Part shown: piece after piece, positions 20,091 through 32,200 of the stretch
Position numbering within the stretch: the first letter of the stretch is position 1
Layout: each line of letters starts with the position of its first letter
Source of the DNA: Deltaproteobacteria bacterium
GTDB lineage: Bacteria > Desulfobacterota > B13-G15 > RBG-16-54-18
Reading direction: 5' to 3'
DNA length: 58,520 nt
Assembly: GCA_019308925.1 (NCBI GenBank)
Contig: JAFDHG010000002.1
Span: 1 to 58,520, forward strand
Notes under the pieces: model-generated
What the model saw: the letters and a program-made list of their open reading frames with translations, nothing else
What the model was told of the DNA's origin: nothing
Databases searched by the model: none
Position numbers and translations under genes: made by a program

Positions 20091-20492
20091 TCAGTAACTA
20101 CCGAGGAATTCTTTGGGAGTAACAATCTTTATACCCATATAATCTTGTATTGCTGTGAGGCTCTTGTCTCCTGAAATGACAAAGTCAGCCTTCAAGGCTA
20201 CAGCACATTCGATGAACTTGTCATCATCTGGGTCTTCTTCGACTACATGCAATTCGGGTGTCTTTGCAGAGAAAAGGACATGAAAACCACGCGAGAAAAG
20301 ACCCAATAATTCACCTAGCTCTCGTTCGTTCTCTAGTCCAAGACGCCTAAGAATTCCAATATATTCGTCGATGATGGGTTTGGATAGGCATAGAGTGACT
20401 TGACCGAGTTTCCAGAGGTCTATGATCTTCCGAGGATTACCGCCAAAGAAAGAGGAGACGAAAACATTTGCGTCAACCACAACCTTGATCAC
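20091..20492 (-). CDS. PIN-domain toxin of a toxin-antitoxin pair
   Basis: This 133-residue PIN nuclease belongs to the COG1569-type 'putative toxin, PIN family'. Acidic metal-binding residues are visible: D7 in VVVDANVF, the acidic run EEDPDDDKFIECA, and D in VISGDKSL. It would be an RNase restrained by the upstream antitoxin. Its start overlaps the antitoxin stop by four bases (ATGA). A REP-like GGGAAGTGTCCC motif lies just beyond the stop codon. Confidence 0.85.
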   Translation of the reverse strand: MIKVVVDANVFVSSFFGGNPRKIIDLWKLGQVTLCLSKPIIDEYIGILRRLGLENERELGELLGLFSRGFHVLFSAKTPELHVVEEDPDDDKFIECAVALKADFVISGDKSLTAIQDYMGIKIVTPKEFLGSY

Positions 20493-20734
20493 TTCCTGGC
20501 TCTCACTTCTTGAATGATACCTTGAATATCTTCGGGACCAAACCCGCGAGATGTCAACTTAGTACCGATGCGCTTCCACAGATCATCAATATATGAGCCT
20601 ATGTCTCGATTCCTGACGTAATCTTCGAGCAATTCCCTGACAACTTCGCTAACGCTTTTACCCTCGGCCTTGGCGAGGCTATTGACCTTGGTTTTGAGTT
20701 CAGGATCGATTCGGACTATCATTTGAGTCGCCAT
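20489..20734 (-). CDS. Ribbon-helix-helix antitoxin
   Basis: This 81-residue protein has the N-terminal ribbon-helix-helix pattern (MATQMIVRIDPELKTKVNSLAKAEGKSVSEVVRELL). The C-terminal tail (SRGFGPEDIQGIIQEVRARK) probably wraps the PIN toxin. It is the first gene of the pair and should autoregulate through the inverted repeat at 20755-20778. Confidence 0.86.
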   Translation of the reverse strand: MATQMIVRIDPELKTKVNSLAKAEGKSVSEVVRELLEDYVRNRDIGSYIDDLWKRIGTKLTSRGFGPEDIQGIIQEVRARK

Positions 20735-21150: not shown

Positions 21151-23166
21151 ATGCTTATAAAAAGTATTGAGGTGAAGAACTTTCGGTCAATTCGAGAAGC
21201 GTATTTAGATTGCGATAATCTTACAGCCATTGTAGGAAGGAATGGTGCTGGAAAATCCTCTTTCCTTTATGCTATAGATACTTTTTATGACATTGCAGCA
21301 CCGATAACTGAAGAAGATTTCTTTGATCGAGATATAGGCTCTCCTATAGAAATTCGTGTAACTTATGATGATCTTCGTGAGGATGAAAAAGAAGAGTTCA
21401 GTCCATACATAAGAGACGATAGACTGATTGTTACAAAGCGCATTTCGAGCGAAAATGGTCGTATAACACAGCGTTATTATGCTGCAGCTTTACAGATACC
21501 GCAGTTTGCTGAGATAAGGGCAAAGTCTGGTAAAAAACATCGAGTTAATGCTTGGAATGAGTTGGTTGATAGTGGTGAGTTATCCGATTTGGATGGAAAG
21601 GCTCGAAGTGCGGATGAAGTTGAGCGGCTTATGAGTGAATATGAAGTCAATCATCCAGAGCTTATGAAACCGATTGAGCGGGAAGAACAGTTCTTTGGTC
21701 CCAGAAATATTGGAGGTGGCAAGCTTGACAAATTCACAAAGTATGTTTTAGTTCCTGCAGTTCGTGAGGCTTCAGATGAAGTAACTGGTAAAAAAGGAGC
21801 AATCTATCAGATTTTAGATATGATCGTTTTGAGAAAGATTAATGCTAGAAAAGACATACAAGAATTCAAGTCCGAATTTGAAGAAAGGGTCAGAAAACTC
21901 TATAGCTCTGAAAATCTCACAGAGCTACCTGAACTTGGGGCTTCAATTTCCGAAACACTTAAAAAGTTCGCTCCTGGCTCTGAGTTGAACTTAGGATGGA
22001 ATGAGGTTAAACCACCTGAAGTTCCGCTTCCTGCAGCAAGAGCAACTTTAGTCGAAGATAGTTTTGAGGGTGAAATAAGCCGAAAAGGCCATGGTCTCCA
22101 AAGAGCGTTAATTGTCACTTTACTTCAACATTTAGCTATGATAGTTCCTGTGGAGTTAACCACCGAGGGGTCAGTCGAAGAAGCTATCGTTTCAGAACCT
22201 AAAAGCATTGAATCATCACGAGGGCCTGACCTCATTTTAGCTATTGAAGAACCAGAGCTATATCTCCATCCGTCGCGATGCCGTTACTTAGCTAATCTTT
22301 TGCTTCAACTTGCTGAGAGTCCAGGAGTCGGCCTTGGTGCCAGCAACCAAATTATCTATACAAGCCATTCACCATATTTCGTAGATCTCCATCGTTTTGA
22401 CCAAACTCGATTAGTAAGAAAAGTGCCCGCACCAGATTCACTTGTGCCACAGAGCGTTGTTACGCGTTTCTCTCTAAACCAGGCAGCAGAGGTGCTAGCA
22501 AGAGTGTGTAATGTCGATCCCACTGATTTCACAAGGGATAGCTTTAGAGCACGTGCAATGCCTGTTATGAATACTATTGTGAGCGAGGGCTTTTTTGCAG
22601 ATGCAGTTGTAGTGGTGGAAGGGCTATCTGAAGTGGGCACATTATGGAAGATCCAAGAGATCATGAAAAAGAATTGGTCTCAACTAGGAGTAGTCGTAGT
22701 CCCAGCGGGTGGAAAGAACAATATAGACCGTCCTACAGTGATTTTTCGGGGTCTTTCTATCCCTACATATTTCATCTTTGATGCAGATTCACATCTCATT
22801 GGTAAAGGAAGAGAGGAAAAAGATGCGAAAAATCGCAATCATAGATATCTTCGTTTAGCTGGTGTACCAATAGAAGATTTCCCGGACACTCAAGTTCGTA
22901 AAACTTGGGCAGTGTTTAAGGATACTCTTGAAGGAATATTAAAAAAAGAACTTGATGACGATACATTTCTATCCATCCAAAAAGAGGTAGCTTTTGAATT
23001 AGGATATGATGACCCAGAACGTGTAAGCAAAAATATTGAGGGTGCTGCACGCCTTATAGAACTCATCTACGAAAAGAAACATCGAGTACCAATTCTTGAA
23101 GAGATCATCGAAAAAGTTACTAAATTATGTAGCGATGAAAAAGAGGACAAGGCTGGCTTTGTATAA
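21151..23166 (+). CDS. OLD-family ATP-dependent endonuclease (AAA ATPase + TOPRIM)
   Basis: This 671-residue protein has the OLD/GajA architecture. The ABC-type ATPase half shows Walker A GRNGAGKSS (29-37), signature-like RKGHGLQRALI, Walker B LILAIEEPELYLHP (about 361-374) and the H-loop YTSHSPYF. The C-terminal TOPRIM nuclease shows VVVVEGLSEVGTL (about 486) and IFDADSH (about 542), the acidic metal-binding residues. OLD proteins act in phage exclusion and in Gabija, where the partner is a UvrD-like helicase. No helicase follows here; the next ORF is a cassette-borne WYL protein. AAGGAGG precedes the ATG. Confidence 0.9.
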   Translation: MLIKSIEVKNFRSIREAYLDCDNLTAIVGRNGAGKSSFLYAIDTFYDIAAPITEEDFFDRDIGSPIEIRVTYDDLREDEKEEFSPYIRDDRLIVTKRISSENGRITQRYYAAALQIPQFAEIRAKSGKKHRVNAWNELVDSGELSDLDGKARSADEVERLMSEYEVNHPELMKPIEREEQFFGPRNIGGGKLDKFTKYVLVPAVREASDEVTGKKGAIYQILDMIVLRKINARKDIQEFKSEFEERVRKLYSSENLTELPELGASISETLKKFAPGSELNLGWNEVKPPEVPLPAARATLVEDSFEGEISRKGHGLQRALIVTLLQHLAMIVPVELTTEGSVEEAIVSEPKSIESSRGPDLILAIEEPELYLHPSRCRYLANLLLQLAESPGVGLGASNQIIYTSHSPYFVDLHRFDQTRLVRKVPAPDSLVPQSVVTRFSLNQAAEVLARVCNVDPTDFTRDSFRARAMPVMNTIVSEGFFADAVVVVEGLSEVGTLWKIQEIMKKNWSQLGVVVVPAGGKNNIDRPTVIFRGLSIPTYFIFDADSHLIGKGREEKDAKNRNHRYLRLAGVPIEDFPDTQVRKTWAVFKDTLEGILKKELDDDTFLSIQKEVAFELGYDDPERVSKNIEGAARLIELIYEKKHRVPILEEIIEKVTKLCSDEKEDKAGFV

Positions 23167-23176
23167 CCGCAAAACG

Positions 23177-23607
23177 TTAGGCTCAATGCGCATCACTTCA
23201 GAGAGAAGGTAAGGCCATGAATGCCAGAATTTGCAACGCCATCCGTGATCGGAAAGTCATCCGATTCTATTACAACGGTGGCTTCCGTACGGTAGAGCCA
23301 TTCTGCCATGGAATAAGTACGGCCGGGCATGACATTTTGAGAGGCTGGCAAACCGGCGGCTATAGTGAGTCCGGCGAGTCACAGGGCTGGAAACTATTTC
23401 GGGTGGATGATATGTCCAGTCTGACAATTACTGACGAAGTGTTTGAGGGCAGAAGGCCCAGATACAATCCTTCTGATTCGGCAATGACGACCATCTATTG
23501 CAATGTGTAACCAGCCATATCGATCCGGCTGAAGACGCAATGTGCGCCTAACACGCGTTTGCGGTTTTGGCGTATTCGTGCATCCGAGCTTGCAAGCCGC
23601 TGAAACG
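23177..23607 (+). mobile_element. Integron-like gene cassette (WYL ORF + attC-like site)
   Basis: The left boundary is GTTAGGC (23176-23182), just after the OLD stop codon. The right boundary is GTTAGCC (23607-23613). Cutting after the G of each gives a 431-bp unit holding one ORF and a 3' attC-like inverted repeat, the layout of an integron cassette. Both boundaries share CCGC-NN-AAACGTTAG-N-C. The cassette is visibly richer in GC than its neighbours. No integrase is present in the window. Confidence 0.6.
23217..23510 (+). CDS. Standalone WYL-domain protein
   Basis: This 97-residue protein matches a minimal WYL ligand-sensing fold. It starts with IRDRKVIRFYYNGGFRTVEPF, continues with a RGWQTGGYSESG stretch, and ends with WKLFRVDDMSSLTITDEVFEGRRP. 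WYL domains often regulate defence genes through a fused DNA-binding domain; none is present here. AAGG precedes the ATG. It is the only gene inside the cassette-like unit. Confidence 0.78.
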   Translation: MNARICNAIRDRKVIRFYYNGGFRTVEPFCHGISTAGHDILRGWQTGGYSESGESQGWKLFRVDDMSSLTITDEVFEGRRPRYNPSDSAMTTIYCNV

Positions 23608-23658: not shown

Positions 23659-23880
23659 ATGATTGAAAAAGAGCAAATCATAGAAGAATTGGAAAAGAAG
23701 ATTAAAGACAGAGACGTAGAAGAACAGAAACTTTTGCGCAGCATTTGCGATGAGATTTTTGAGGAATACAATAAAGGATCTGCAAAAGCGGCATCTTTAT
23801 TTCTGCAAGGGAAGATCAGTCCCTTAAAAACTAAGTTTGATGATGCACATAATATGCTTTTAAAGAAAATGGGCATATAG
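23659..23880 (+). CDS. Small helical protein preceding the Rad50-like gene
   Basis: This 73-residue protein is almost entirely helical and charged (EKEQIIEELEKKIKDRDVEEQ), probably a coiled coil. It starts at ATG 23659 with CAGGAGGTAGATTT in front; the upstream open frame reads through the attC-like site and is not coding. The gap to the Rad50-like ATPase is 14 bases, so it is likely a partner subunit. The family is not recognised. Its position resembles the small middle component of SMC-like three-component systems, which is inference only. Confidence 0.7.
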   Translation: MIEKEQIIEELEKKIKDRDVEEQKLLRSICDEIFEEYNKGSAKAASLFLQGKISPLKTKFDDAHNMLLKKMGI

Positions 23881-23894
23881 TAGAGGTACATAAA

Positions 23895-26039
23895 ATGGCA
23901 GGCTATTGGATCCTAAAAGAAATAACAATAAGTGGATTTAGAGGTTTTGTTGAACCAAAAACCTTCATAACTTCAGGACCTTTTACCCTTTTTGATGGTC
24001 CTCAGCGTTCGGGGAAAAGTAGTACATTAGTTGCTATAGAGTGGGGGCTATTTGGCGACGAGATCGCGAAGAAAGCCATTGGAATTGATGAACGAAGGGG
24101 CTGGAAAATACGGAACACCAACTCGGATGAAGCTAGGGTCGAAATGGTTTTGCAGAATGGACAAGGCATTCTTAAGATTGTTCGTTCAGACAAGAAAAGA
24201 AGAGGAAGTCCAGATTTCTATTTTGAATTGAACGGGATTCAGGACACGGACGAAGAGAAGCTACGAGCGGTACTTAGGATTCAACCTAAGGACTACTTCA
24301 GTTCAGTCCACTTACACCAAGAAATCATAAGAGCGCTTCTAACCGAAGAACCAAGGAGCCGACGGGATTCACTCGATCGACTATTGGGACTATCTGAATT
24401 GCGCAATATTCTTGAGGGGATAAAATTGGCGAAGATTTCGGAAACTCTCAAGGATGTTGATGATAGATTCGGACTAATTGAAACCAAACTAAATGCTGTT
24501 ATGACAAGCAAACAGGCTGATATTCAAAGAGAGAAAGAGATAGGCATTCAGAGAGGTCTTACATCTGATAATTTCTCAGAAACTGGTGCCAGACAGATGT
24601 GTGAGACGGTAAAAACTACGCTTGTTAATTTTGCGAACCAAGCTGGTTTAACTATTCCCGATCTACCTTTGGCAGGCACTGTAGATGAACAACATATCCT
24701 TACCAGTTCAGCTAAGCAGTCGCTTAGAAAACTTCGAGATGAACAGCCTGACCTAAAACGACAAAAGGAGTTGCTTGAAAAACAAAGTCAATTGCAAAAG
24801 TTACAACAATCTTATGGGGAACTTTTAGGTGAACATCAAAATCTTCAGCAAGAGAGAAAGCGTATCTACGAAACTGAGGGTGATCGGGGGGAAATACAAT
24901 CCCGAATAAAAGAATTGAATTCTAAATTAACTAACGCAAAAACCAGACGGAACGAGATTGATAGGCGAGCGGGTACGATTGAAGAAGCTATTAAATACTT
25001 TGAGGCTCTCAGTGCTCCCACAGAAAAGCAGCCTTGTCCTGTCTGCAATAAACCCATTGATGACGTAGCGCACTTACGAACACATCTAAAAGCATTGAGG
25101 GCGAATTTGGATAAGGATTTAGCGCCAATTAGAGAAGAGATTGAAAAATACGAAAAAGAAATTGGGCGTTTGGAGCATTTAATAAAAGGCCTAAATGATT
25201 TGGACAGAAAGATAAGCAGTAAAACTGAACTGCTTAAAGAATGTAAATCAGATATAGAAACCGCGCTTGGATATGAAATAAAAGAGACAGAGGATCCTGT
25301 TATTGTTCTGAGAAAGGAAATCGAAAAGATCCAAGAGGAACTCAAAAAACTTGAAAGTGCAGTAAAAGAAAGCAACCAGAAACTAAATGCTATTGAGGAC
25401 GATATTTCAAAATTAGAGCAGATATTAAGGGTGTTGGACTTGGAAGTAGAGATCGAAGATTTGTTGAAGATAAAAGAAACAGAAGAGTATAAAGAAGTAG
25501 AAAAAACGAAATTAGAACTTGAGAAGTTTGCAGCAGATATTGACTTAATCAGTCAAATTATAGAGAAAAGGATTAAAGAAAGTGCCAGGGCAAAATTGGG
25601 CGCTGCAAAAGATAGCATTGCCAATATGTTTAAGACCTTAGCAAACCGACCTGACTTTTCGGAAATAGAAATTGATCCGAATAGCTTTGAGATTCTTGCA
25701 GTCAAAGGAAGTGAAAAAATTCCAGCATTGTCAATTTTCAACCAGGGCGATTTAAATTGCGCTGGTCTAAGTGTTTTTCTCGGTCTGGGAGCAGCACAGG
25801 AATTATCACACAACCTTGGCTTCATTATTTTGGATGATCCATCGCAAACCTTGGATAGTACCCACAAGGAAAATCTTGTTAGCATCTTGAACTCTATACC
25901 AGATGATAAACAAATTTTGGTTTCTACTTCTGAGTCTGACCTTAGAGATTTGATTCTAACCAAAATAATAAGGAAAAAGAAACGTTACAATTTTGCTCCA
26001 TGGTCTGATATAGAGGGCGCGAAGCCTGGGGAGGTTTAA
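23895..26039 (+). CDS. Rad50/SbcC-like ATPase with zinc hook
   Basis: This 714-residue SMC-family protein has Walker A GPQRSGKSS (35-43) after an FRGF start typical of Rad50/RecF proteins. Two long coiled-coil arms flank a CPVC zinc hook (381-384). The C-terminal lobe carries the signature-like FNQGDLNCAGLSVFLGLG (about 615) and Walker B FIILDDPSQTLD (about 643). It is shorter than housekeeping SbcC (about 1000). No Mre11/SbcD neighbour is present; instead a PD-(D/E)XK nuclease follows 8 bases later. That replaces the usual nuclease partner and points to a specialised, probably defensive, complex. Confidence 0.85.
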   Translation: MAGYWILKEITISGFRGFVEPKTFITSGPFTLFDGPQRSGKSSTLVAIEWGLFGDEIAKKAIGIDERRGWKIRNTNSDEARVEMVLQNGQGILKIVRSDKKRRGSPDFYFELNGIQDTDEEKLRAVLRIQPKDYFSSVHLHQEIIRALLTEEPRSRRDSLDRLLGLSELRNILEGIKLAKISETLKDVDDRFGLIETKLNAVMTSKQADIQREKEIGIQRGLTSDNFSETGARQMCETVKTTLVNFANQAGLTIPDLPLAGTVDEQHILTSSAKQSLRKLRDEQPDLKRQKELLEKQSQLQKLQQSYGELLGEHQNLQQERKRIYETEGDRGEIQSRIKELNSKLTNAKTRRNEIDRRAGTIEEAIKYFEALSAPTEKQPCPVCNKPIDDVAHLRTHLKALRANLDKDLAPIREEIEKYEKEIGRLEHLIKGLNDLDRKISSKTELLKECKSDIETALGYEIKETEDPVIVLRKEIEKIQEELKKLESAVKESNQKLNAIEDDISKLEQILRVLDLEVEIEDLLKIKETEEYKEVEKTKLELEKFAADIDLISQIIEKRIKESARAKLGAAKDSIANMFKTLANRPDFSEIEIDPNSFEILAVKGSEKIPALSIFNQGDLNCAGLSVFLGLGAAQELSHNLGFIILDDPSQTLDSTHKENLVSILNSIPDDKQILVSTSESDLRDLILTKIIRKKKRYNFAPWSDIEGAKPGEV

Positions 26040-26047
26040 TAATAGGT

Positions 26048-26590
26048 ATGGAAGCAATTATCTTTCAAACTCTTAAACGGATAAGGGACAAACACGGGCC
26101 TAGTGAATTTGGCAAAATTGCACAAAAGCTTCTTGGGATTGTGCTTTGCCGATTATGTTTTGAAGTAAAGGAACGCAGTGTCCAAGATGTGGATATAGAA
26201 GCAGTTAAGAAGGGATTAAAATACTGGCTTGAGGTTAAAACGACTGATAAAGATGAAGTCATCATAGGAGAAAAAGATGTTAGTGGCTTGAAGCAATGCG
26301 AGCTACTACATGGAGGAGCAACTGGTTATGCAATTTTAAAGGTTAGTTTATTATCTGATTGGATCATAGCCTCAAGCGGAAATATCAAATCGGGTACTGT
26401 TCGCATCGGCAGGTTTAGTACTCAAAGAATTTTGCCGTTACAGAATGATGTAAACAAGAACTTTCCATCTATAGTAAAGGAATTAGGAAACCAAATTTTA
26501 TCAGCTACCAAAGGTCAAGCACAATTCGTTGCTGACAGATTGCTGAAGTTGGAAATAGAAAAGAAAAATTGCAATGATAGATCTGTCTGA
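26048..26590 (+). CDS. PD-(D/E)XK nuclease-like protein
   Basis: In this 180-residue protein the pattern D47/D49 (DVDIEAV) ... E62-V-K64 (YWLEVKTT) is the restriction-endonuclease-like active site, on a predicted strand-turn-strand. A preceding helix holds GKIAQKLLGIVLCRLCF. The later strands (GYAILKV, DWIIASSG) are typical of the fold. It directly follows the Rad50-like gene, so it is the likely nuclease subunit. Substrate specificity is unknown. Confidence 0.65.
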   Translation: MEAIIFQTLKRIRDKHGPSEFGKIAQKLLGIVLCRLCFEVKERSVQDVDIEAVKKGLKYWLEVKTTDKDEVIIGEKDVSGLKQCELLHGGATGYAILKVSLLSDWIIASSGNIKSGTVRIGRFSTQRILPLQNDVNKNFPSIVKELGNQILSATKGQAQFVADRLLKLEIEKKNCNDRSV

Positions 26591-26670
26591 TACCATGTAT
26601 TGCCTTGCAGCTTATTTTCGTTTCACCCGCCTTTAGTGGGCTTATGCAAATCCATATTCGGAGGTGTGTT

Positions 26671-27945
26671 ATGCCTAAAATAAGCGATATCGAAGACAAA
26701 GGCAAGGAGAGGTTAGCCATTCCTCATTTGCCTTGGCTCAAAAAATCCATTGGTTCAGATCTCATCAAGGGAGGAATATATCTTTTGGCAGGTGAACCTG
26801 GAATTGGTAAAACCACTTTAGCTCTCCAGATATTGGGAGATCTAAGCAGGCAAGGCGTGAAAGTCTTATATATACCAACTGAACAGAGCATGAGTGATAT
26901 AAAGCGAGTAGTAAATCGAATATATGATTTAGAATCGGACGAAGTTCGATCATCAATTAGTGAGAACTTGTATATTGATACTATTGATGATCTGGCAATG
27001 CTACCTTGGTTTTTAAACCATCGAATTCTACCCCCTGAAAGAGAATACTACGGGTGCGAGATTATCGTTATAGACTCTCTTCAAGGAGGCGGGTTGTCCA
27101 CAGGGGTTGGGGAGAAGTATAAGGCTCTTCTTGATTTTGTAGATACTGCAAAAGGAACCGGGATTAGTTGTTTATTTGTGAACCATGTGACAAAGAGCGG
27201 AGAAATTGCTGGGCCAAAAGCTCTTGAACATGCAGTTGACTGTATAATTTACATTCGAAGAGCGCTTCGTTTACGACCCCTTTTTGTTCCGAAGAACAGG
27301 TTTGGCCCAGCCATGCTTGATCCTCTTGTCTTGATTATGGATGAGCAAGGTCTTAAGGAATCGCCCCACATAACAGCAGAGGCTAGCGCAGTATTGGGCT
27401 ATAGTGGCATAGGTGAGGATTTCGCTGAAGCGCAAGCTTCTGTCACTATACCAAGATATGGTTCCCCTCCAGGGTTAAGTGCTCCATTCCTTCCCAGTAA
27501 AAAGATTAAACAGCTTCTGAAAGTTTTGGGTACTCTTAAAGATATTGATGTGGTTGACCTATCTTACGATGTGAGTTGTTTTATCCCTGGCCGACATGGG
27601 TATGCAATAGTGCTTGACCTACCTATTATAGTGGCCCTTTTAAGTTCGTACTTGCATCAACGAGTGGATAACCAAACTCTATTCATAGGAGAAGTCGATC
27701 TTACAAAGCAAATTCGGCCACCTGAGAGGACGTATTTAGCTGCCTTAGCAGAAGTTCTTGTTGAATCACAGCCAGGAAGAATAAAACTTATCTATTTGTC
27801 TGAAAAAGTGGCTGATGAGTTTAAGCAAATGCAACCGCAGGAGGGTATGCCAAAGGTTGGCGACCTTGTAGAAGTTTGTGGTGTGAGGGATTTAGATTCT
27901 TTTCTTCACCACCTTTGGCCTTTTTTAATTACGGCTGGAAAATAA
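26671..27945 (+). CDS. RadA/Sms-like ATPase lacking the zinc finger
   Basis: This 424-residue protein starts at ATG 26671, which follows GGAGGTGTGTT. The RecA-like core shows Walker A GEPGIGKTT, Walker B IIVIDSLQ, NHVTKSGEIAGPKALEHAVD, and the RadA-specific KNRFGP motif. The C-terminal half (about 270-420) matches the Lon-protease-like domain of RadA. The N-terminal C4 zinc finger of housekeeping RadA is absent. RadA is a branch-migration helicase in recombination; this paralogue, placed between two nuclease genes, probably serves the same cluster. Confidence 0.82.
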   Translation: MPKISDIEDKGKERLAIPHLPWLKKSIGSDLIKGGIYLLAGEPGIGKTTLALQILGDLSRQGVKVLYIPTEQSMSDIKRVVNRIYDLESDEVRSSISENLYIDTIDDLAMLPWFLNHRILPPEREYYGCEIIVIDSLQGGGLSTGVGEKYKALLDFVDTAKGTGISCLFVNHVTKSGEIAGPKALEHAVDCIIYIRRALRLRPLFVPKNRFGPAMLDPLVLIMDEQGLKESPHITAEASAVLGYSGIGEDFAEAQASVTIPRYGSPPGLSAPFLPSKKIKQLLKVLGTLKDIDVVDLSYDVSCFIPGRHGYAIVLDLPIIVALLSSYLHQRVDNQTLFIGEVDLTKQIRPPERTYLAALAEVLVESQPGRIKLIYLSEKVADEFKQMQPQEGMPKVGDLVEVCGVRDLDSFLHHLWPFLITAGK

Positions 27946-27965
27946 TCTAAATAGGAGGAATTACC

Positions 27966-28460
27966 ATGCCACCCCCCTCCGTACCTCGACGAGTAGAAGA
28001 CATCATTTTCTACTACTACGCTAAGTTAGTTATTGCACCTTCAGCAGGATTCGGTGGAAACTACGGGTTTATTATTGATGCCTACAAGCGTTTAAAATCT
28101 GGCGAGATTCGAATGTCGGACTACGAGCGGGAACTTTTACATATCGCTGAGGTGCCAAATATATGTGCTTTTTGTGAATCCAGGAGCGCTAATTGTAAAA
28201 TAACACATATAGTATCAAGGTCTTTTGGTATTAAACCAGGTATGCACAATATAGTTTATGCATGTGAAACATGTTGTGCTTCCAAAGGTGAAAAAGACCT
28301 TGGAGAATGGTGGTGTAAGGATTTAAAGAGACCTCGTGACGAAATTCCTCGTGTGCCCTTAGGACTGTATTTAAAAATCGCATATGAACTGCATAAGGTA
28401 AACTTTAGTTTAAGAAAATCGTGTCAAAGTCTTGAAAAGCTCTTCAGAGCATTGGAATAA
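27966..28460 (+). CDS. HNH-type endonuclease
   Basis: This 164-residue protein shows an HNH/zinc arrangement. CAFC (67-70) and CETC (100-103) supply zinc-binding cysteines. HIVSRSFG holds the first His at about 81, HNIVYACETCCASKGEKD the Asn and second block, and GEWW follows. This is the usual fold of HNH restriction-type nucleases. AGGAGG lies before the ATG and the gap to the RadA-like gene is 20 bases. It is the last gene of the five-gene block; a dispersed repeat follows. Confidence 0.75.
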   Translation: MPPPSVPRRVEDIIFYYYAKLVIAPSAGFGGNYGFIIDAYKRLKSGEIRMSDYERELLHIAEVPNICAFCESRSANCKITHIVSRSFGIKPGMHNIVYACETCCASKGEKDLGEWWCKDLKRPRDEIPRVPLGLYLKIAYELHKVNFSLRKSCQSLEKLFRALE

Positions 28461-28482: not shown

Positions 28483-28616
28483 GGTCAGGTCTTGCATACA
28501 ACATTTTGATGGCAATTTCCTTTCAAAAGGCACTTAAACATGGCCCTCTCTCCTTCTCCAAAATCAATCACCAACCCATCTATCCATCCAAAATATTTTA
28601 TGCTAGGATGAAAATA
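28483..28616 (+). repeat. Dispersed repeat, copy A (with extended -10 core)
   Basis: The family consensus reads CAGGTCTTGCAATACAACA, TTTTGATGGCAA, a CCTCTCCTTCTCCAAA block, ATCCATCC, then TTTTATGCTA. Here the core TATGCTAGGAT (28599-28609) looks like an extended -10 promoter. It points at the restriction endonuclease gene 120 bases on. No gene lies in the 270-base gap. Confidence 0.75.
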
Positions 28617-28729: not shown

Positions 28730-29623
28730 ATGAAACAGGATCGTTTGTGGGACAAACAGGAAGAGGAGGAATTCTTCAGGAAGACCTTGGAAATAGCTAC
28801 TCCTGAGCAACTTTTCTATGTTACTGAAGATGGCAGGTATCTCGCATATTGGCCCAAGGGATATAAAGGGGTTAAAACGACCCTTCAAAGCAGAAATGCC
28901 TTCATAGGTTCTTATACGGAGAGATGGATAAGTCGATTGATAGAACCCATAGCAGACGAAGTTGGCGGTTTTCCGGTCCAAGGCGTAATCTGTGAAGAGA
29001 TAGGACTTACGAAAAGATCACCAGCGGATGTGGCTATCTGCAAAAACAGAGGTCTTATTCAGAAACCTGAAAACATATTACTTCTGATCGAAGTCAAGAT
29101 GTCGGTTGTGTGGAACTGGGAATATGATATAAACACTCAGAGAATTATATCTATAGGTGATTACACTTCCCATCAGGGCAATCCCGGTCTTTTACGCTCA
29201 GATACCATGCTTAAAGCCGGTGGAAAGAGTATAAATATCAAGGTTTCCGATGTTAAGGCTACAAAAATCCCCATTATTGTCTTTGGGAATACACCTATTA
29301 CTAAGAATTACTACGAAAAAGTCGACCATCTCAAAAGGGCTGGTATCATTCAGGGTTTCTTCTCCGTAAATCCTTATCCATTGGACGACCCAAAAAGAGC
29401 CACTAACATTAAAGGTACACCGCAGAGAGGATTCTTACGATTTGACACCTTCTCTGAGCTAAAAGAGATCTTACTTTCTCTTCTGAAGGAAGAAAGGGAG
29501 TTTTTCTCCGGAAAGAAGACAAAGTCTGACTTGGGAAGAATTATAGAAATGGCAAGTCAAGAACCGACATACGAGAAGAAGGCAGAAAGGTTCTTGCAGC
29601 TACTGAGAGAGGTAGAAGATTGA
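28730..29623 (+). CDS. Type II-like restriction endonuclease
   Basis: This 297-residue protein contains a PD-(D/E)XK site: SPADVAIC (D100) then LLLIEVKMSV (E121, K123). N-terminal GSYTERWISRLI and the central DYTSHQGNPGLLRSD stretch may contact DNA. It is paired with a DNA methyltransferase whose TTG start overlaps its TGA stop, the usual layout of a restriction-modification unit. Recognition sequence unknown. Confidence 0.8.
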   Translation: MKQDRLWDKQEEEEFFRKTLEIATPEQLFYVTEDGRYLAYWPKGYKGVKTTLQSRNAFIGSYTERWISRLIEPIADEVGGFPVQGVICEEIGLTKRSPADVAICKNRGLIQKPENILLLIEVKMSVVWNWEYDINTQRIISIGDYTSHQGNPGLLRSDTMLKAGGKSINIKVSDVKATKIPIIVFGNTPITKNYYEKVDHLKRAGIIQGFFSVNPYPLDDPKRATNIKGTPQRGFLRFDTFSELKEILLSLLKEEREFFSGKKTKSDLGRIIEMASQEPTYEKKAERFLQLLREVED

Positions 29624-30561
29624 AATATTCCAGAAAGAAAAGGGGGACACAGACAAGTTCCTTTGGCGTGCCGGGCAGGATCAACCACGATTCCACCCCC
29701 TTCTATACAAGCAGACTTTATGTAGGCCTACCTCAAGAGAAGAGGATAAAGTATCTTGAAAACCCCATTCCCGCGGAGTTTCTTGATAAGATCTTTTGCA
29801 AATCAAGCGAGAATATGGAGGAATTGCCTGACGATAGCATTCACCTGATGGTTACTTCACCCCCTTACAATGTAGGTAAGGAATACGATGAGGACCTTAC
29901 CCTAGAAGAATACAGGGCCTTTTTAAAAAGGGTATGGGCTGAAGTATATAGGGTTCTTGTGCCAGGTGGTAGAGTATGTATCAATATCGCCAACCTGGGG
30001 AGGAAACCCTATATCCCCCTTCATGCCTTTATAGTAGAGGATATGCTGGATTTGGGATTTCTGATGAGGGGGGAAATCATATGGAACAAGGCATCAAGTT
30101 CTAGTCCTTCTACTGCTTGGGGTAGTTGGCTTTCAGCTGCCAATCCAACTTTAAGGGATATTCACGAGTATATCTTGGTCTTCGCCAAGGATACCTTCTC
30201 TAGGAAAAATCCTTATAAAAGAAAAGGGTCGATTTCCAAAGAAGAATTCCTGGAATTTACTAAAAGTGTTTGGAGATTCCCTGCGGAGCCGGCAAAAAAG
30301 GTTGGCCATCCCGCACCTTTTCCTGTGGAACTACCTTATAGATTAACTCAGCTTTACACCTTTGAGAGTGAGGTGGTTTTGGACCCCTTCATGGGGAGCG
30401 GACAAGCGGCGATAGCTGCCATAAAGACAAAGCGGCATTATGTAGGTTATGAGATAGAGGAGGAATATGTAAAGTTGGCCCAAAGGCGGATCGAGGAATT
30501 TGAACTGAGTTTCAATGCCCCCAAGTTATTTGACTTCATGGAAGAGAAAAGAGGTAAATAA
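29620..30561 (+). CDS. Site-specific DNA methyltransferase (TSPPY type)
   Basis: This 313-residue amino-methyltransferase has the catalytic motif TSPPYN at about 79-84. The SAM-binding motif LDPFMGSGQ lies near 255, after the variable region. This motif order is the beta class. SPPY favours N4-cytosine but does not exclude N6-adenine. It starts at TTG 29620 with GAGG upstream, overlapping the endonuclease stop. It protects host DNA from the partner nuclease. Confidence 0.87.
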   Translation: MKYSRKKRGTQTSSFGVPGRINHDSTPFYTSRLYVGLPQEKRIKYLENPIPAEFLDKIFCKSSENMEELPDDSIHLMVTSPPYNVGKEYDEDLTLEEYRAFLKRVWAEVYRVLVPGGRVCINIANLGRKPYIPLHAFIVEDMLDLGFLMRGEIIWNKASSSSPSTAWGSWLSAANPTLRDIHEYILVFAKDTFSRKNPYKRKGSISKEEFLEFTKSVWRFPAEPAKKVGHPAPFPVELPYRLTQLYTFESEVVLDPFMGSGQAAIAAIKTKRHYVGYEIEEEYVKLAQRRIEEFELSFNAPKLFDFMEEKRGK

Positions 30562-30576
30562 CTAGCCATGGAAAAG

Positions 30577-30710
30577 CAGGGCAGGCCTTGCAATACAACA
30601 TTTTGATGGCAACTCTCTTTTAAAATAACCTTAGATACGCCCCTCTCCTTCTCCAAAACTAATCATCAAACCCCTCTATCCATCCAAGATATTTTATGCT
30701 AAGATAATTC
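30577..30710 (+). repeat. Dispersed repeat, copy B
   Basis: The same family blocks occur in the same order and orientation as copy A. TATGCTAAGAT (30695-30705) is its -10-like core, 73 bases before the DUF2281 gene. The repeat fills the gap after the methyltransferase. Confidence 0.75.
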
Positions 30711-30987: not shown

Positions 30988-31088
30988 TGTATCTCATAGA
31001 CACTAATGTCTTCTTAGAGGTACTACTAACTCAAGAAAAGCGAGAAATCTGCAAAAGCGGGGGCAGGTCTTGCAATACAATTTTTTGA
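30987..31088 (+). pseudogene. PIN toxin gene truncated at a repeat
   Basis: The frame begins MYLIDTNVFLEVLLTQEKRE, the canonical first strand and catalytic Asp of a PIN domain. After about 24 codons it runs into repeat copy C and stops at 31086-31088. A normal toxin has about 130 residues. The repeat insertion or a linked deletion has removed the rest, leaving an orphan antitoxin. Confidence 0.8.
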
Positions 31089-31268
31089 TGGCAACTCCCT
31101 TTTAAGATACCCTTAGATATACCCCTCTCCTTCTCCAAACCCAATCACCACCCCATCTGTTCATCCCAAAAGTTTTATGCTAAAACAAAGAAGGCGGGAG
31201 GGCCAAAAAAGAGAAGTAAAAAATACGGAAAGTGTTACTAATATGATCTGAAAAACAAATCCGTCCCG
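31058..31268 (+). repeat. Dispersed repeat, copy C
   Basis: Starts inside the truncated PIN gene. Contains TATGCTAAAAC at 31176-31186 and a 3' extension with the REP-like AAAAAATACGGAAAGTGT. Its last ~105 bases are nearly identical to copy D. Together C and D bracket the 55-residue ORF and the cold-shock gene. Confidence 0.8.
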
Positions 31269-32000: not shown

Positions 32001-32200
32001 TTGTATAATACGACATGTTGACGGCAAGTCCTTTTAAAATACCTTTAGATACGCCCCTCTCCTTCTCCAAACCTAATCACCAATCCATCTATCCATCCCA
32101 AAAGTTTTATGCTAAAACAAAGAAGGCGGGATGGCCAAACAAGAGAAGTAAAAAATACGGAAAGTGTTACTAATATGATCTGAAAAACAAATCCGTCCCG
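32001..32200 (+). repeat. Dispersed repeat, copy D
   Basis: Same family, with a 3' half almost identical to copy C, including TATGCTAAAAC and the REP-like AAAAAATACGGAAAGTGT. It lies upstream of the AsmA-like gene in the same orientation; about 200 bases of unassigned sequence separate them. Confidence 0.8.

Follow-up and report, generated by a model that had tools for sequence, protein, structure and literature searches.

We find that three adjacent genes in the window (the whole stretch of 58,520 nucleotides that was analysed), which encode a small helical protein (HEL), a Rad50/SMC-like ATPase (ABC) and a PD-(D/E)XK nuclease (PDX), represent a real, conserved and apparently undescribed SMC/Rad50-type ATPase-nuclease module. 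The three genes occur in the same order and on the same strand in approximately 16 independent loci from many phyla of both bacteria and archaea, a count in which the Moorena genomes are treated as one; contig ends truncate two loci (L019 and L016). We consider that HEL-ABC-PDX (23659-26590) probably constitutes a three-subunit, ATP-gated sensor-nuclease complex, most likely directed against mobile DNA. The RadA-like and HNH-like genes that follow form an independent cassette within the same acquired island, and what had been proposed as a five-gene system is now split into two testable modules.

The gene block and its surroundings

The five plus-strand open reading frames described in the earlier note are all present, with gaps of 14, 8, 80 and 20 bases between them, and each of the five is preceded by a purine-rich ribosome-binding site. 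Their placement in an AT-rich island also holds, given a G+C content of 34-42% for the block compared with 56-59% in two genes that lie beyond it. The genes and the ABC motifs are as follows.

21151-23166, plus strand: OLD-family ATPase-TOPRIM nuclease (Old, 8e-53), a neighbouring defence gene outside the core
23217-23510, plus strand: WYL-like open reading frame of 97 amino acids, possibly associated with the core
23659-23880, plus strand: HEL, helical protein of 73 amino acids, core gene 1 (phmmer matches and gene order across loci)
23895-26039, plus strand: ABC, Rad50/SMC-like zinc-hook ATPase of 714 amino acids (Pfam AAA_23, 2.2e-8; family profile against solved Rad50, 1e-30)
23997-24020, plus strand: ABC Walker A, GPQRSGKS (sequence motif)
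25035-25046, plus strand: ABC zinc hook, CPVC, residues 381-384 (sequence motif)
25740-25751, plus strand: ABC signature region, NQGD replacing the usual SGG[EQ] (sequence motif)
25833-25856, plus strand: ABC Walker B and D-loop, DDPSQTLD, with Asp replacing the catalytic Glu of Rad50 (sequence motif)
26048-26590, plus strand: PDX, Hjc-fold PD-(D/E)XK nuclease of 180 amino acids, core gene 3 (profile and predicted fold)
26671-27945, plus strand: RadA-like ATPase without N-terminal zinc finger, cassette gene 1 (alignment to canonical RadA)
27966-28460, plus strand: HNH-like four-cysteine protein, cassette gene 2 (sequence homology; metal site probably incomplete)
28730-30561, plus strand: unclassified open reading frame and type II DNA methyltransferase, overlapping by 4 bases, outside the core (reading of open reading frames and family profiles)

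The flanks had been described as an OLD nuclease on one side and a restriction-modification pair on the other. Both the OLD gene and the methyltransferase (29620-30561; PDLC03350, 5.7e-138) are borne out; for the partner open reading frame at 28730-29623, PADLOC and NCBIfam give no match and Pfam nothing better than chance. A PD-(D/E)XK-like motif is visible in it by eye, and the two genes are a probable restriction-modification pair. Imperfect, non-coding direct repeats of 55-171 bases (28496-28605, 30579-30701, 31061-31268 and 32030-32200) surround this pair and a cold-shock-like gene, and a PIN-domain toxin with a ribbon-helix-helix antitoxin lies on the minus strand at the island edge (20091-20734). 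A WYL-like small open reading frame directly upstream of HEL-ABC-PDX is found in two loci in total, the second being L016 (3-338), and its product could regulate either the three-gene module or the OLD gene.

The HEL-ABC-PDX core

The description of gene 2 as a Rad50-like ATPase with a CPVC zinc hook is upheld by the location of its Walker A, hook and Walker B motifs, the last of which reads ILDD in the window. All 16 aligned members of the ABC family possess a CPxC hook, and in all 16 the catalytic Glu that Walker B normally has is replaced by Asp, while the altered signature reads NxGD in the group of the window and STGQ or similar in others. Solved Rad50 structures are the best matches of the family profile (1e-30). 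Relatives detected by scanning bacterial and archaeal genomes with the ATPase alignment come from Peptococcaceae, Moorena cyanobacteria, Actinomycetota, Thermodesulfobacteriota and Elusimicrobia, as well as Methanosuratincola, Micrarchaeota, Euryarchaeota and Methanomassiliicoccales. The ABC tree mixes phyla and both domains, which indicates horizontal transfer.

The PD-(D/E)XK assignment of gene 3 is confirmed by profile and predicted fold, and can be made more specific: the fold is that of a Holliday-junction resolvase. The PDX profile matches Hjc (1gef) at 5.8e-6, and every match retrieved at E<=0.001 in a structure search with the PDX model (pLDDT 92.7) is an Hjc or RecU/PrfA-type resolvase. 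Residues of catalytic type are E20, Q26, D49 and E62-x-K64; of these, E20, D49 and E62-x-K64 are conserved or nearly so within the family, and together with the predicted fold they reproduce the Hjc-type arrangement of an E...D...ExK active site.

The earlier pairing of an SMC/Rad50-type ATPase with a PD-(D/E)XK protein is supported: together with a small helical protein, the two recur as a unit in bacteria and archaea, outside the coverage of PADLOC. In most core loci the small open reading frame preceding ABC is placed between a 26-base overlap and 30 bases upstream (approximately 190 bases in two Moorena genomes), and HEL matches were obtained with phmmer in L008, L009 and Moorena; PDX is divergent in L020 and L021. 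Pairwise distances are strongly correlated both between ABC and PDX (r=0.93, Mantel p 5e-5) and between HEL and ABC (r=0.89, Mantel p 5e-5), which shows co-inheritance of the core proteins, not physical contact. Moreover, when 395 genomes of the phylum were searched with the PDX profile, it matched in two, both times adjoining ABC. The core as a whole is rare and patchy (3 of the 395 sampled phylum genomes, <1%). No match was found to ABC in the plasmid search, or to PDX in the phage and plasmid searches; viral contigs yielded distant ATPases only, and profile searches detected neither HEL nor PDX in those ATPase loci.

The RadA-like/HNH cassette

Gene 4 had been described as a RadA paralogue that lost its zinc finger, and this is supported: its P-loop, KNRFG motif and C-terminal Lon-like region all align to canonical RadA, and the N-terminal zinc-finger region is missing.

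26791-26817, plus strand: P-loop of the RadA-like protein (alignment)
27292-27306, plus strand: KNRFG motif of the RadA-like protein (alignment)

The zinc finger that marks RadA/Sms is absent from the RadA-like copies of both the window and L034. Plasmid matches to the RadA-like protein are all below 60% identity and are mostly annotated as canonical RadA.

The claim that gene 5 encodes an HNH nuclease stands only in part. The protein is an HNH homologue, but it scores 12.8 bits against a Pfam cut-off of 21.4, and the Asp of DH and the Asn of CN are missing from the proteins of the window, L034 and L039 (both are kept in L008 and L040). These residues normally bind metal, and nuclease activity is consequently unproven. 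The structure model of this protein is poor (pLDDT 70.9).

A reading in which all five genes form one system, as the earlier note proposed, draws on their common strand, short gaps and individual ribosome-binding sites, on the lack of a plus-strand terminator-like site in the interval from PDX to the RadA-like gene, on an HNH gene of another subfamily that follows the core in L008, and on the proximity of the HNH gene of genome G278 to Mre11-like and Rad50-like genes. We regard it as improbable. The core loci repeat genes 1-3, and in none of the others does the RadA-like gene stand beside the core. The cassette, moreover, is found without the core: genome G065 encodes a 75% identical RadA-like copy with an HNH gene directly behind it, and in G278 a RadA-like C-terminus at the contig end precedes an HNH gene, in neither case with the core. 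The circumstance that the note named as counting against its own proposal, namely that RadA-like and HNH homologues are never found beside the Rad50-like gene elsewhere, thus applies fully to the RadA-like gene and nearly so to the HNH gene, for which L008 is the sole exception. Further RadA-like genes were not found at 1e-45 in the classes to which G065 and G278 belong. In L039 (4391-10014), from G278, the RadA-like end and HNH gene lie near genes that are RecB-like (by reading), Mre11-like and Rad50-like. It is quite improbable, though it may be imagined, that two mobile cassettes were joined in this lineage into a Ruv-like junction-processing immunity apparatus, in which a Rad50-type sensor and a resolvase-type nuclease would act with a zinc protein and a branch-migration ATPase derived from RadA.

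Function and relation to known systems

In the mechanism we propose for the core, ABC would dimerise via its zinc hook and its heads, the latter with ATP bound, and would sense DNA that is branched or has free ends, for instance intermediates formed when phages or plasmids replicate or recombine. The Hjc-type PDX, positioned as Mre11 is beside Rad50, would be brought to the sensed DNA and would cut it under the control of ABC, with HEL probably acting as an adaptor or regulator. If the core does serve in defence, the branched DNA of replicating invaders is suggested as a target that is recognised.

A role of the core in defence is favoured by its patchy spread, horizontal transfer and neighbours, the evidence from neighbours being descriptive in kind. 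Cas3 and AbiEi are among the defence-type neighbours of core loci; others are a NERD helicase, an OLD-like ATPase and a DpnI-like enzyme accompanied by a methylase and an OLD gene, and the window adds its own OLD gene and methyltransferase. Toxin-antitoxin-type genes are situated near two more core loci. No recognised defence gene lies nearby in 4 of the 11 core loci with long flanks (L011, L012, L013 and L020). The main rival to this interpretation is a module for DNA repair or recombination, in which the core would be an alternative Mre11-Rad50-like processor of ends or junctions; its nearest solved relatives, Rad50 and the Hjc/RecU resolvases, are consistent with such a role, as is the situation of several core loci among ordinary genes. 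However, the rarity and patchiness of the core, its horizontal movement and its frequent position beside defence genes all argue against repair, as does an Mre11/SbcD-like match elsewhere in 10 of the 15 genomes searched, including that of the window (2 of these matches exceed the family cut-off and the rest fall below it), which suggests that the usual Mre11-Rad50 pair may already be present. Consequently, a role in repair appears unlikely, and defence remains our preferred reading.

Membership of Lamassu (ABC-3C), in which HEL would correspond to LmuC and PDX to LmuA, was also considered and is rejected as most improbable. Lamassu does combine an SMC-like ATPase, often with a CPxCG hook, with an effector (PMC10586767), and all 16 core ATPases match the PADLOC LmuB model PDLC03859. 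Yet this match (1e-40) is non-specific, given that the same model also matches an SbcC beside Mre11 (4e-27) and gives a hit in M. jannaschii, and neither LmuA nor LmuC is found alongside ABC, PADLOC returning no match for HEL or for any nuclease of the PDX family. The strong LmuB matches (L054 and L055) have different neighbours and fall far from ABC in a head-domain tree, where they occupy a branch of their own with a length of 3.75 changes; as its branches are long and forks in it are open, the tree separates these LmuB proteins from ABC without fixing family position. Furthermore, replacement of the Walker B Glu by Gln is reported as general for LmuB (PMC10586767), whereas all 16 core ATPases have Asp. 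A LmuB profile match alone is thus misleading for the core ATPase. The resemblance to Lamassu/ABC-3C (LmuABC, DdmABC) is one of three genes, a hooked SMC-like ATPase, a putative nuclease and patchy spread; the differences are in the companion genes, the place in the head-domain tree and the Walker B residue.

A second likeness is to arcadin-4, a Rad50 relative of the crenactin cluster, which is similar in length to ABC and the best curated match of several ABC members (up to 1.6e-44), although these matches are far below the 860-bit cut-off and neither crenactin nor any further arcadin was recognised in the vicinity of the core genes. ATPases with arcadin-4 as best match are those of L017 (3989-6160), L018 (9992-12175), L023 (9941-12145) and L025 (9959-12151). 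Arcadin-3 of the crenactin cluster is also small (PMC5173319). HEL and ABC might be related to arcadin-3 and arcadin-4.

For the cassette, the closest known system is the branch-migration ATPase RadA/Sms, which has the P-loop, KNRFG motif and Lon-like region in common with gene 4; gene 4 differs in its missing zinc finger, its HNH-like partner gene and its identity of only about 31% to the canonical RadA that the genome of the window also encodes. PDX shares its fold and catalytic residues with the Hjc/RecU Holliday-junction resolvases, and cleavage of four-way junctions by PDX is putative; unlike them, it has extra N- and C-terminal helices and is coupled to a Rad50-like ATPase, and its copy in the window scores below family cut-offs. 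What the core has in common with Mre11-Rad50/SbcCD is the pairing of a nuclease with an ABC ATPase that has a coiled coil and a zinc hook. In agreement with the earlier statement that no Mre11 accompanies the ATPase, however, the nuclease is an Hjc-fold PD-(D/E)XK enzyme, not the Mre11 phosphoesterase, and no metallophosphoesterase open reading frame was recognised by reading in the core loci; the core also has an additional small helical gene, a shorter coiled coil and the Walker B Asp. With a resolvase-type enzyme in the place of Mre11, an apparently undescribed ATPase-nuclease pairing that spans bacteria and archaea thereby joins the SMC/Rad50-based systems of DNA surveillance.
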